Source of the DNA: Chloroflexota bacterium
GTDB lineage: Bacteria > Chloroflexota > Limnocylindria > QHBO01
NCBI GenBank assembly: GCA_013816405.1
Contig: JACDEL010000006.1
Location: 24,794-68,020 of the forward strand
Direction of reading: 5' to 3'
DNA length: 43,227 bases
The position numbers and the translations under genes were made by a program. The notes beneath the pieces were generated by a model. It was given only the letters and a program-made list of their open reading frames with translations, did no database searches and had not been told where the DNA came from. Below are positions 31,239-42,997 of this stretch, piece after piece (position 1 is the first letter of the stretch; the number at the start of each line of letters is the position of its first letter).

Positions 31239-33698
31239 CTACTCCCCGGGAGTGACGATGTTCACCAGGCGACCCGGGATCTGCACCACCTTGCGCGGCG
31301 CGCGTCCCTTCAGGTAGGCCTGCACCCGCTCGCTGGCCAGCGCCAGGCGCTCGATCTCCTCGGGAGCGGTATCGGGCGCCACCGACAGCCGGTCGCGCAG
31401 CTTGCCATCGACCTGGACCGGCAGCTCGATCATGTCGGAGACGACCAGCGCGGGGTCGTAGGTCGGCCAGGTCTGCTGGTGGACGCTGTACGGCTTGCCG
31501 CGCCGCGACCACAGCTCCTCGCTGATGTGCGGCGCCATCGGCGCCAGCAGCAGAAGCAGCGTGTCGACCGCCTCGGCGTAGGCATCGGTCCCGGCCAGGC
31601 CGTCGTCGCGCGCGCTGCCCAGAGCATTGGTCAGCTCCATCAGCCTGGAGAGGGCCGTATTGAAACGGAACTGGGCGAAGTCTTCGCCAACCTCCTTGAT
31701 GGCCCGATGGGTGGCCTGCCGCAGGCCCCGCGTCTCTCCGCTTCCCGGCCCCGACCCAGACGCCTGGGCCACGGCCCAGACCCGGCCAAGGAAGCGATGG
31801 ACCCCCTCGATGCTCGAGGGATTCCATGGACCGCCCTGGTCCCAGGGTCCGATGAACATCAGGAAGCAGCGCACCGTGTCCGATCCGAAGCGCGAGGTCA
31901 GGTCGTCGGGGTTGACCACGTTGCCGCGCGACTTGCTCATGCGATGGTGGTCGGCGCCGAGAATCTGTCCCTGGTTGCGCACTGCGCTGAACGGCTCGTC
32001 GAAGTCGAGCAGCTGCATGTCGCGCAGGGCCTTGGTAAAGAAGCGGGCGTACAGGAAGTGCAGGACGGCGTGCTCGGCGCCGCCGGTGTAGAGGTCGACC
32101 GGCATCCAGCGTATGACCGCCTCCGGGTCCCACGCCCGCGTCTCGTCGTGGGGCGAGCAGTAGCGCAGGAAATACCAGGATGAATCGACGAAGGTGTCCA
32201 TGGTGTCGGTCTCGCGGCGCGCCGGCTTGCCACACACCGGGCAGGAGGCGTTCAGGAACTCGGCGTGGGACTGAAGCGGGCTGACCCCGGTTGGAGCGAA
32301 GTCCACGTCGCGCGGCAGCAGGACGGGCAGCTGGTCCTCCGGCACCGGCTGCGGGCCGTGCTCGTCGCAGTACACGATCGGGATCGGGGCGCCCCAGTAG
32401 CGCTGCCGGCTGATCAGCCAGTCTCGGATGCGATAGGTGATGGCCGCCGCTCCCTGGCCGCGCTCTGCCAGGTTCTCGGTGATGGCCGCGATGGCATCGG
32501 ACGCGGCCATGCCGGTGAAGTCGCCGGAGTCGACCAGCACCTCGTCGTCGGTGTGCGGCAGGAAGGCCTCGCCCTCCGGCAGCGTGCCGTCGCGCGGGGC
32601 GACCACGTAGCGGATCGGCAGGTCGTAGCCGGTTGCGAAGGCGTAGTCGCGCTCGTCGTGAGCGGGGACGCCCATCACCGCACCGGTCCCGTAGGTGGGC
32701 AGCACGTAATCGGCGATCCAGATCGGGATGCGCTCCTCGGTCATGGGGTTCACGGCGTAGGCACTGATGAAGACCCCGCTCCGCTCGCGCTCTGTGCCCA
32801 TCCGCTCGATCTCGGTCTCCCGTCGGGCCGCGGCCACGTAGGCCTCCACCTCGGTGCGCCGGTCGTCGGTGGTCAGGGCAGCCACGGCGGGGTGCTCCGG
32901 GGCCAGGACCATGAAGGTCGCGCCGAAGATGGTGTCGGGACGGGTGGTGAAGACGCGGATCGGCGCGACGCCATCGGCCTCCACCGCGAAGTCGATCTCG
33001 GCGCCCTCGCTGCGACCGATCCAGTTGGTCTGCATCAGGCGGATCGGCTCCGGCCAGTCGATCCTGCTGAAGTCCAGCAGCTCGTCCGCGTAGCGGGTGG
33101 TGCGGAAGAACCACTGCTCCAGGTCGCGCTTGATGACCGGCGTGCCACAGCGCCAGCAGTGCCGATCGGCTCCCTCGACCTGCTCGCGCGCCAGCACCAC
33201 CTGGTCCTTGGGGCACCAGTCGACCGGCGACATGGCCCGATATGCCAGCCCGGCCTTGAAGAATTGCAGGAACAGCCACTGGGTCCATCGGTAGTAGGAC
33301 GGGTCGCTGGTGACCACCTCCCGCGACCAGTCGAACATGCAGCCCATCGAGCGGAACTGGGTCCTCATCCGCTCGACGTTGCTTTCGGTCCAATCCCAGG
33401 GATGCACGCCGCGGTCGATGGCGGCGTTCTCGGCCGGTAGGCCGAACGAGTCGAAGCCCATCGGAAACATCACGTTCAGGCCCTGCATGCGGCGCATGCG
33501 CGCCACGATGTCGGGCCCCGTGGCCGCATACCAGTGCCCGATATGCAGGTCGCCCGACGGGTACGGGTACATGGTCAGCAGGTAGTGCTTGTCCCGCGGG
33601 TCGTCGTCATCGGCCCGATACAGGTCGTCCGCAGCCCATCGATCCCGCCACCCGGATTCGTAGGTCCTCGGATCGTACCGCTCGCCGCGCTCGGTCAT
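31239..33698 (-). CDS. leuS: leucyl-tRNA synthetase
   Basis: An 819-residue class I synthetase charging tRNA-Leu. The HIGH motif is at 52-55 in YPSGDLHIGHWY, and the KMSKS loop reads RMSKSRGN. The CP1 editing domain is present (FTTRPDTIFGATFMVLAPEHP, YGTGAVMGVPAHDERD), as are a zinc-binding CWRCG and a CPVCGKPA pair. Bacterial length is usual. Its ATG overlaps the stop of the GNAT gene as ATGA, and the T-box leader upstream of GNAT controls both. Expression should rise when uncharged tRNA-Leu accumulates. Confidence 0.97.
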   Translation of the reverse strand: MTERGERYDPRTYESGWRDRWAADDLYRADDDDPRDKHYLLTMYPYPSGDLHIGHWYAATGPDIVARMRRMQGLNVMFPMGFDSFGLPAENAAIDRGVHPWDWTESNVERMRTQFRSMGCMFDWSREVVTSDPSYYRWTQWLFLQFFKAGLAYRAMSPVDWCPKDQVVLAREQVEGADRHCWRCGTPVIKRDLEQWFFRTTRYADELLDFSRIDWPEPIRLMQTNWIGRSEGAEIDFAVEADGVAPIRVFTTRPDTIFGATFMVLAPEHPAVAALTTDDRRTEVEAYVAAARRETEIERMGTERERSGVFISAYAVNPMTEERIPIWIADYVLPTYGTGAVMGVPAHDERDYAFATGYDLPIRYVVAPRDGTLPEGEAFLPHTDDEVLVDSGDFTGMAASDAIAAITENLAERGQGAAAITYRIRDWLISRQRYWGAPIPIVYCDEHGPQPVPEDQLPVLLPRDVDFAPTGVSPLQSHAEFLNASCPVCGKPARRETDTMDTFVDSSWYFLRYCSPHDETRAWDPEAVIRWMPVDLYTGGAEHAVLHFLYARFFTKALRDMQLLDFDEPFSAVRNQGQILGADHHRMSKSRGNVVNPDDLTSRFGSDTVRCFLMFIGPWDQGGPWNPSSIEGVHRFLGRVWAVAQASGSGPGSGETRGLRQATHRAIKEVGEDFAQFRFNTALSRLMELTNALGSARDDGLAGTDAYAEAVDTLLLLLAPMAPHISEELWSRRGKPYSVHQQTWPTYDPALVVSDMIELPVQVDGKLRDRLSVAPDTAPEEIERLALASERVQAYLKGRAPRKVVQIPGRLVNIVTPGE

Positions 33699-34255
33699 TC
33701 GGGTGCTCCTTCATCCGGGAACCAGGCCATCAGCAGCTCATCGCGGTACTCGCCCCCCGGGACGCGGTACTGGCGGCGGCGGAGCCCCTCGCGCTCGAAG
33801 CCGGCGCGTTCGTACACGGCAATCGCCCGGTCGTTGTCAGGGAATACCCCCAGCGCCACCTTGGCCAGGCCACACTGGGCCGCCCAGACCGTGGCCGCCT
33901 CGACCAGCGCCGACCCGATCCCGACCTCGCGCCAGCCGTCCGCCACGCAGATCGACAGGGTGCCGACATGGTCGCTCACCACGCTGTGCTCGACGCTTAC
34001 GAGCACGTTGCCGACCACCTCCCCGTCCGCCTCGGCCACCAGGACCAGGCTGCTCGAGTCGCGGATCATCTCGCCGATGTAGAACGCCTCCGACGGCTGG
34101 CTCACCGCCGAGGCAGGCGTCACCAGCCAGCGTCCCTCGCGCCGCACGTCCGCGAACAGGCTCGCCAAGGCACGCGCATCCGTTGGGCGTGCCGGGCGAA
34201 GCGTCCACGGTCGGCCATCCCTGGCCATTCGCGGCTGGGCCTCGGTGATCGTCAT
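33695..34255 (-). CDS. GNAT-family N-acetyltransferase
   Basis: The start ATG at 34255 (MTITEAQPRMARDG) lies 45 nt after the T-box terminator; the ORF-track extension to 34411 runs into the leader and is not a gene. 186 residues with the GNAT core: LRPARPTDARALASLF, VAEADGEVVGNVLVS, LSICVADGWREVGIGSALV (acetyl-CoA-binding Q/RxxGxG/A-like loop) and NDRAIAVYERAGFEREG. The substrate is unknown; RimI-like protein N-acetylation or small-molecule acetylation are both possible. Being the first gene under leucine T-box control is unusual and suggests a link to translation or leucine status. Confidence 0.85.
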   Translation of the reverse strand: MTITEAQPRMARDGRPWTLRPARPTDARALASLFADVRREGRWLVTPASAVSQPSEAFYIGEMIRDSSSLVLVAEADGEVVGNVLVSVEHSVVSDHVGTLSICVADGWREVGIGSALVEAATVWAAQCGLAKVALGVFPDNDRAIAVYERAGFEREGLRRRQYRVPGGEYRDELLMAWFPDEGAPE

Positions 34256-34299: not shown

Positions 34300-34335
34300 A
34301 AAGCCCCCGCCTCGTCAGTGACGAAGGGGGGCCTT
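34300..34335 (-). terminator. T-box terminator hairpin
   Basis: On the minus strand AAGGCCCCCCTTCGTC-ACT-GACGAGGCGGGGGCTTT, two stacked helices (GCCCCC/GGGGGC and CGTC/GACG) with an internal loop, ending in CTTTGT. It directly abuts the T-box sequence at 34336, as in transcriptional T-box leaders. The U-tract is short. Confidence 0.75.
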
Positions 34336-34354
34336 CGCGGTACCACGCTGACTT

Positions 34355-34452
34355 GACCGATTGGGGTGGTGGAGCTGGGGGGACTCGAACCCCCGACCCC
34401 CTGCATGCCATGCAGGTGCTCTCCCAGCTGAGCTACAACCCCACGATCGGTC
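34355..34452 (-). repeat. 7-bp inverted repeat bracketing tRNA-Ala
   Basis: GACCGAT (34355-34361) and ATCGGTC (34446-34452) are perfect reverse complements lying 6 nt and 4 nt outside the tRNA gene on its two sides. Without the tRNA they would close a compact hairpin just upstream of the antiterminator, in the place of T-box Stem III. Confidence 0.7.
34367..34442 (-). tRNA. tRNA-Ala (anticodon GGC), CCA encoded
   Basis: A 76-nt canonical cloverleaf: acceptor GGGGTTG/CAGCTCC with the G3-U70 identity pair, D arm GCTC/GAGC, anticodon arm CCTGC-ATGGCAT-GCAGG, variable loop GGGTC, T arm GGGGG-TTCGAGT-CCCCC, discriminator A and encoded CCA. The anticodon GGC reads GCC and GCU. It lies inside the leucine T-box leader in the same orientation, so it is most simply transcribed from the leader promoter at 34609. 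Confidence 0.97.
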
Positions 34453-34608
34453 CACTCATCGGCGCTGCTATCGGACGCCATCCCGGCCGCTGTTGGCGGC
34501 TGCTCGGCGGGCGAGGTCGGGGTCTCTGCGATCGCCGGCTTGCACCTTCCCGGCTCGCTGCGGATCGAGGCGGACGCCTACTGTTCCCGCGTCAACGCGT
34601 TCGGGCGG

Positions 34609-34614
34609 AGTATA
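34609..34614 (-). promoter_or_regulatory. extended -10 box of the T-box/tRNA-Ala/leuS transcript
   Basis: On the minus strand GCTGATATACT, an extended -10 (TG-A-TATACT). Initiation near 34602 places Stem I just inside the transcript. The same 11-nt word lies before the second tRNA-Ala gene. No good -35 is seen, as expected for an extended -10 promoter. Confidence 0.65.
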
Positions 34615-42921: not shown

Positions 42922-42997
42922 TGGTGGAGATGAGGGGACTCGAACCCCTGACCCCTGCGATGCGAACGCAGTGCTCTCCCAACTGAGCTACATCCCC
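42922..42997 (-). tRNA. tRNA-Ala (anticodon CGC), CCA encoded
   Basis: A 76-nt canonical cloverleaf: acceptor GGGGATG/CATCTCC with the G3-U70 pair, anticodon arm CTGCG-TTCGCAT-CGCAG, T arm AGGGG-TTCGAGT-CCCCT, discriminator A and encoded CCA. The anticodon CGC reads GCG. Together with tRNA-Ala(GGC) at 34367 it covers part of the alanine box; the UGC isoacceptor is not in this window. Confidence 0.97.

Follow-up and report, generated by a model that had tools for sequence, protein, structure and literature searches.

A tRNA-Ala(GGC) gene nested in the predicted leucine T-box leader of leuS in bacteria of several phyla

Organisation of the leader and its surroundings

The DNA analysed here, referred to as the window, is a stretch of 43,227 nucleotides from the genome of a Chloroflexota bacterium. 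Its minus strand carries, from position 34614 to 34300, a -10-like box, a T-box leader, a tRNA-Ala(GGC) gene, an antiterminator and a terminator; a GNAT gene and then leuS lie beyond them. The GNAT acetyltransferase gene is the first one past the leader (33695-34255, minus strand; Pfam PF00583, E = 3.2e-17), and its stop is overlapped at 33695-33698 by leuS, encoding leucyl-tRNA synthetase (31239-33698, minus strand; Pfam PF13603, LeuRS editing domain, E = 6.5e-64). The GNAT gene lies between leader and leuS in the window's family; in most other lineages leuS comes directly after the leader, with no GNAT gene in between.

A preliminary description of this DNA had proposed that a leucine T-box lies at the locus, and the comparison with the Rfam T-box model bore this out. 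With the tRNA left in place and at a permissive threshold, RF00230 was aligned over its full length (model positions 1-219) to 34604-34314 on the minus strand, with a score of 39.7 bits (E = 1.8e-7). An insert of 84 nt, ACCGAU[84 nt]AUCGGU, falls precisely at the Stem III tip of this alignment and is the tRNA-Ala(GGC). Because the Rfam gathering score for RF00230 is 93, the T-box is missed by default annotation, and the tRNA is the sole match that Rfam reports at the locus at its default threshold.

The individual elements of the leader (34314-34604) can be placed on the minus strand as follows. The -10-like box, TATACT (34609-34614), was recognised from the sequence just 5' of Stem I, and no clear -35 element accompanies it. 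Stem I, defined by the Rfam alignment, spans 34502-34598 and includes the specifier CUC (34515-34513), a leucine codon that pairs with tRNA-Leu(GAG) and was identified from the sequence and from its conservation in other nested leaders; the amino acid of the specifier matches the downstream gene, CUC standing ahead of leuS. The arms of Stem III are GACCGAT (34446-34452) on the 5' side and ATCGGTC (34355-34361) on the 3' side, as indicated by the Rfam alignment, by register-specific pairing in relatives and by the predicted fold of the window leader, in which the two arms pair. The purine motif RRRxG, here GAGTG (34453-34457), precedes the 5' arm, and AA (34353-34354) follows the 3' arm; these two elements flank Stem III in known T-box discriminators (PMC7583486). 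Next comes the antiterminator (34317-34349, Rfam alignment), with the bulge UGGUACC at 34345-34339, so that the RRRxG-Stem III-AA discriminator and a UGGN bulge, UGGU in the window, are both present. A terminator hairpin, CCCCCC...GGGGG with a short T tract (34300-34331), was predicted from the fold of the leader, and its 5' half overlaps the 3' half of the antiterminator. Minimum-energy folds of whole leaders did not reliably show the cloverleaf of the tRNA, such folds being uninformative for GC-rich RNAs.

The nested tRNA-Ala(GGC) gene (34367-34442, minus strand) was called by both ARAGORN and Rfam (62.5 bits). It has a cloverleaf, a GGC anticodon, an encoded CCA and the identity pair G3:U70. 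The Stem III arms bracket it, and the earlier claim that a complete tRNA-Ala sits inside this helix is supported. The pair G3:U70 and a discriminator A occur in 151/151 of the distinct nested loci described below, and a U at position -1 occurs in 120/151. Among the 50 tRNA matches in the window's genome, three tRNA-Ala types were recognised, TGC (adjoining tRNA-Ile), CGC and GGC. The nested tRNA is the sole tRNA-Ala(GGC) found among the typed matches, three weak or partial matches lying outside the typing of this approximately 95% complete assembly. The window itself holds a second tRNA-Ala, with anticodon CGC, which stands alone at 42922-42997 on the minus strand. In six further assemblies whose nested copy lies on contig 1 (G453, G459, G486, G665, G676 and G711), BLAST with a tRNA-Ala, which diverged second copies could escape, gave one GGC isoacceptor each, at the nested position; a separate search of 14 genomes gave at most one GGC copy per genome. 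The identity pair, the discriminator A, the frequent U at -1 and the status of sole GGC isoacceptor found make the nested tRNA-Ala look functional, and the last of these gives indirect support to its release from the leader and use in translation. In addition, tRNA-Leu(GAG), the partner of the CUC specifier, is present in the window's genome and ends in ACCA, matching the UGGU of the bulge.

Four T-boxes were found in this genome, and only the one in the leuS leader has a tRNA inside. The other three (L001, L002 and L003) also lie below the Rfam cut-off; they precede TrpB-like (specifier UGG), valS-like and ileS-like genes, named by eye from their translations.

Distribution and conservation of the nested arrangement

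The preliminary description had proposed looking for this order of elements in related genomes, and there the order was conserved. We collected 174 nested loci, 151 of which were distinct after dereplication, and the arrangement of promoter, Stem I with CUC, Stem III 5' arm, tRNA-Ala(GGC), Stem III 3' arm, antiterminator, terminator and leuS recurs among them. Downstream leuS was found on the same strand in 119 of the 129 loci checked, and the remainder lie mostly near contig ends. The nested order is present in the window's family and in two further families of the same class; outside the class it occurs in Bacillota, Thermomicrobiota and Armatimonadota. A DNA search of 60 relatives yielded 17 loci from the window's family in which tRNA and leader matched together, all 17 with tRNA-Ala(GGC). 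In a second family (f2), ten loci gave full-length T-box matches of 77-90 bits around a tRNA-Ala(GGC) with other Stem III arms, and a third family (f4) is also nested (L299). Carriers in Bacillota include Syntrophomonas wolfei and Desulfofundulus; since cultured strains exist among the carriers, namely Syntrophomonas wolfei subsp. methylbutyratica JCM 14075 and Desulfofundulus thermosubterraneus DSM 16057, experiments are possible.

Pattern searches gave a broader view. An exact pattern, consisting of the 3' half of the tRNA followed within 35 nt by GTGGWACCGCG, was applied to one genome per species and matched at least 119 stretches. Among the matches listed, all tRNAs called by ARAGORN were tRNA-Ala(GGC), and the other matches were mostly due to chance, a few being clipped by contig ends. 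At least 101 nested loci came from this pattern, with at least 67 in Bacillota, at least 14 in Chloroflexota, at least 7 in Thermomicrobiota, at least 3 in Armatimonadota and a few under other labels, although some of the minor phylum labels may reflect misbinned MAGs. A slightly looser pattern matched 43 of 400 genomes in the window's phylum, where at least five matches are due to chance; in the phylum of Syntrophomonas wolfei, 58 of 300 genomes matched. These counts are lower bounds because a match requires that the T-loop read GGTTCRA and that CC or CCA be encoded, so that nested tRNAs of other kinds lacking these would escape. Every nested tRNA in the collected loci is Ala(GGC). Two chance matches from a viral scan (L204 and L205) and a tRNA-Gly(TCC) match with no T-box (L237) were rejected.

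We give almost no weight to the idea that the tRNA entered a single genome by chance or through a recent insertion and retained a promoter of its own. The arrangement recurs in many genera and several phyla, always as Ala(GGC) with a leucine T-box, a conservation over 151 distinct loci that rules out chance, and the promoter-like sites precede Stem I rather than the tRNA. In a LeuRS tree, the nested state appears both in the Bacillota part and in the part comprising Chloroflexota, Armatimonadota and Thermomicrobiota; the tree was built by a quick method, and deep ancestry with losses and transfer are not separable from it.

All nested leaders scored, including that of the window, cover RF00230 positions 1-219. 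The window, all ten f2 loci, L148, L121, L100 and L144 fall below the gathering score, and L093, L143, L132 and L091 lie above it. The specifier is CUC in 146 of the 148 nested leaders of sufficient length; the other two are L162, from an Actinomycetes MAG, in which the specifier has decayed, and L190, which has no recognisable Stem I. At L190 the promoter leads directly into Stem III, which holds the tRNA-Ala, and the antiterminator and leuS come next. The CUC specifier and the Stem I motifs are kept in nearly all of the 148 leaders across phyla. Two leaders from Coprothermobacterota and Caldisericota (L100, 2087-2325, and L121, 7219-7455) are much shorter in Stem I, which lacks its distal T-loop region, and in one Bacillota group (L129, L140, L159, L194, L281, L283 and L285) Stem I runs nearly straight into Stem III, Stem II and Stem IIA/B seemingly being missing. 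The codon after CUC is GCC, an alanine codon, in 95/138 leaders and otherwise also GTC, ACC or ATC. A role for GCC as a second specifier was set aside because this codon varies, because GCC is found in tRNA-free T-boxes too (L292 and L295), and because it sits where the Stem I helix resumes.

The pairing of Stem III is likewise maintained around the tRNA. The RRRxG and AA anchors were found in 144/151 loci, and there are 72 distinct Stem III 5' arms. The anchored arms pair at 5.30 of 6 positions, compared with 3.83 ± 0.07 when partners were shuffled (300 shuffles, highest value 4.08), a difference that shared ancestry inflates. When the 3' arm was moved by 1-3 nt, pairing dropped from 5.24 in register to at most 2.89; this slide test retains ancestry, and its anchors were picked for maximal pairing, which favours the unslid register. 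An unanchored test gave 7.2 versus 6.1 bp, a weaker separation than the anchored one. In many loci the arms begin no more than a few nucleotides from the ends of the tRNA, and the 5' and 3' linkers differ among loci in both sequence and length. As to the terminator, four consecutive T were present within 120 nt in 123/151 nested loci.

The upstream regions of leuS were also inspected in 30 further genomes selected for lacking the pattern. Nested tRNAs were found there both without a full encoded CCA (L293, L297-L300 and L312) and with one (L301). At L292, tRNA-Ala(CGC) and tRNA-Ala(GGC) form a tandem pair just ahead of a leuS T-box, inside which there is no tRNA, and L295 and L310 are leuS T-boxes without any tRNA. 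In two more families of the class to which the window belongs, f3 and f5 (L287, L291 and L296), no T-box motif was found and a tRNA-Ala(GGC) lies 50-315 nt before leuS. The tandem at L292 and the T-box-free loci extend the linkage of tRNA-Ala(GGC) to leuS past the nested form. In large-genome Chloroflexota (family f21; L245-L259, L263, L293, L298 and L301), a tRNA-Ala(CGC) is located about 300-450 nt 5' of the nested tRNA-Ala(GGC) and perhaps shares its transcript.

Some relatives have thus lost the T-box while keeping tRNA-Ala before leuS, which indicates that the switch is dispensable there. Together with the decayed specifier of L162 and the absence of Stem I from L190, these f3 and f5 relatives could suggest that the T-box is a relic and that the leader now serves merely as a tRNA-Ala precursor ahead of leuS. 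We consider this very improbable for the nested leaders, since nearly all 148 of them, across phyla, retain CUC, the Stem I motifs, the antiterminator and a paired Stem III.

Transcription, switching and tRNA processing

Promoter-like sites, defined by at most one mismatch to TTGACA-N16-18-TATAAT, were found before Stem I in 64/140 loci and within the 150 nt before the tRNA in 1/140. Lower-GC relatives have near-consensus promoters at the position of the window's -10-like box, and promoters are less clear in GC-rich genomes, including that of the window. The tRNA is most likely transcribed from the promoter of the leader. The earlier suggestion that tRNA-Ala would be produced irrespective of leucine status agrees with the presence of promoter-like sites 5' of Stem I and with the location of the tRNA upstream of the terminator.

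We think it probable that the locus is a working leucine T-box that attenuates transcription ahead of leuS, or of GNAT-leuS in the window, that the tip of its Stem III is the tRNA-Ala(GGC) gene, and that the RNA switches during transcription and is processed to tRNA afterwards. A single promoter before Stem I would give a single leader, in which Stem I would read tRNA-Leu(GAG) through CUC as transcription proceeds. The nested tRNA-Ala would fold as an independent domain capping Stem III, whose tip would be a permissive site, and the RRRxG-Stem III-AA discriminator and the UGGU bulge would test the 3' end of tRNA-Leu. Uncharged tRNA-Leu would then lead to read-through into leuS, and charged tRNA-Leu to termination. 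Because tRNA-Ala lies upstream of the terminator, we infer that terminated and read-through RNAs would both be tRNA-Ala precursors, and the attenuated leader, usually waste, would be turned into a supply of tRNA. The sequences themselves show the anatomy of the leader, its conservation, the pairing of Stem III and the position of the promoter-like sites. Several observations count against this reading: the low T-box score, unclear -35 and short T tract of the window, the folds without a reliable cloverleaf, the loss of the T-box in some relatives, and L190 without Stem I.

The preliminary description also noted that processing by RNase P would separate Stem I from the antiterminator, both of which are needed for switching, and this conflict is real in logic. 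Under the attenuation reading, the T-box decision would precede the cut, and RNase P and 3' nucleases would mature the precursor once the decision is over. The main rival links the two processes, making processing part of the control: either the folded discriminator would gate the release of tRNA-Ala, or release by RNase P would set the 5' end and stability of the read-through leuS mRNA, and leucine status and tRNA-Ala yield would consequently affect each other. The flanks of the pre-tRNA, with which RNase P would make contact, lie in Stem III, whose arms start within a few nucleotides of the tRNA ends in many loci; nesting is kept across phyla despite the existence of tandem and T-box-free arrangements; and RNA decay shapes at least one T-box operon, the met leader of S. 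aureus (PMC3771891). However, the linkers on both sides are variable, and passive insertion would explain the same facts, so that we regard control by processing as unlikely. A possible but doubtful extension is that the locus is a composite gene of ancient origin, whose Stem III, shared by the discriminator and the pre-tRNA flanks, would gate RNase P and thereby couple tRNA maturation mechanically to the riboswitch decision. If such coupling were true, leucine status would alter the release of tRNA-Ala, or processing by RNase P would set the fate of the leuS mRNA.

A further proposal was that the encoded ACCA of the nested tRNA-Ala competes in cis, pairing with the UGGU bulge of the same RNA and thereby modulating antitermination. 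The geometry on which it was based is correct, since the ACCA (34370-34367) ends 21 nt before the TGGT (34345-34342), close to the 20 nt or so first noted, and the discriminator A is universal. However, the 3' strand of Stem III intervenes and would have to open, and the full encoded CCA is absent in 10/151 nested loci; several loci encode no CCA or only CC (among them L293, L297, L300 and L312). Because the encoded CCA is not universal, cis-competition is disfavoured, it fails as a general mechanism, and we attach very little probability to it.

Relation to known systems and implications

The nested leaders resemble the leuS-type transcriptional T-box (RF00230) in having Stem I with a specifier, Stem II and Stem IIA/B in most cases, a Stem III flanked by RRRxG and AA, a UGGN antiterminator, a predicted terminator and an aminoacyl-tRNA synthetase gene downstream. 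Because all testable T-box features are present, we classify them as a variant of the T-box riboswitch and not as a new class. They differ at the tip of Stem III, where the usual short loop is replaced by a complete gene for the tRNA of a different amino acid, alanine. tRNA genes also occur in operons with translation genes, such as tRNA-tufB of E. coli, where the tRNA shares a transcript and must be cut out of it; in such operons, however, the tRNA is not known to form a structural element of a riboswitch. The L292 arrangement, with tRNA-Ala genes just before the leuS T-box, looks closer to these operons.

T-boxes with insertions in Stem III and other domains have been described, in which extra discriminator sequence is tolerated; they were called curious and of unknown function, and none is described as a tRNA gene in that review (PMC7583486). 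In agreement with the preliminary description, no tRNA gene inside a T-box was found in the searchable full-text literature, including T-box reviews and surveys; a mention in classic surveys beyond it (Vitreschak 2008, Gutierrez-Preciado 2009) is possible. The design, in which a single RNA provides both a riboswitch and a tRNA gene, appears undescribed, and it is conserved across phyla with a fixed pairing of tRNA-Ala(GGC) with a leucine switch. It also marks a blind spot of annotation, because the insert leaves many nested leaders below the Rfam T-box cut-off.

In many anaerobic and soil bacteria, one stem of the predicted leucine switch of leuS ends in a complete tRNA-Ala gene, so that sensor and tRNA precursor seem to be one molecule. 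It thereby offers a way to test how a tRNA is excised from an RNA that must stay whole for sensing, whether an attenuated leader is necessarily waste, and why the supply of alanine tRNA and leucyl-tRNA synthetase became tied.
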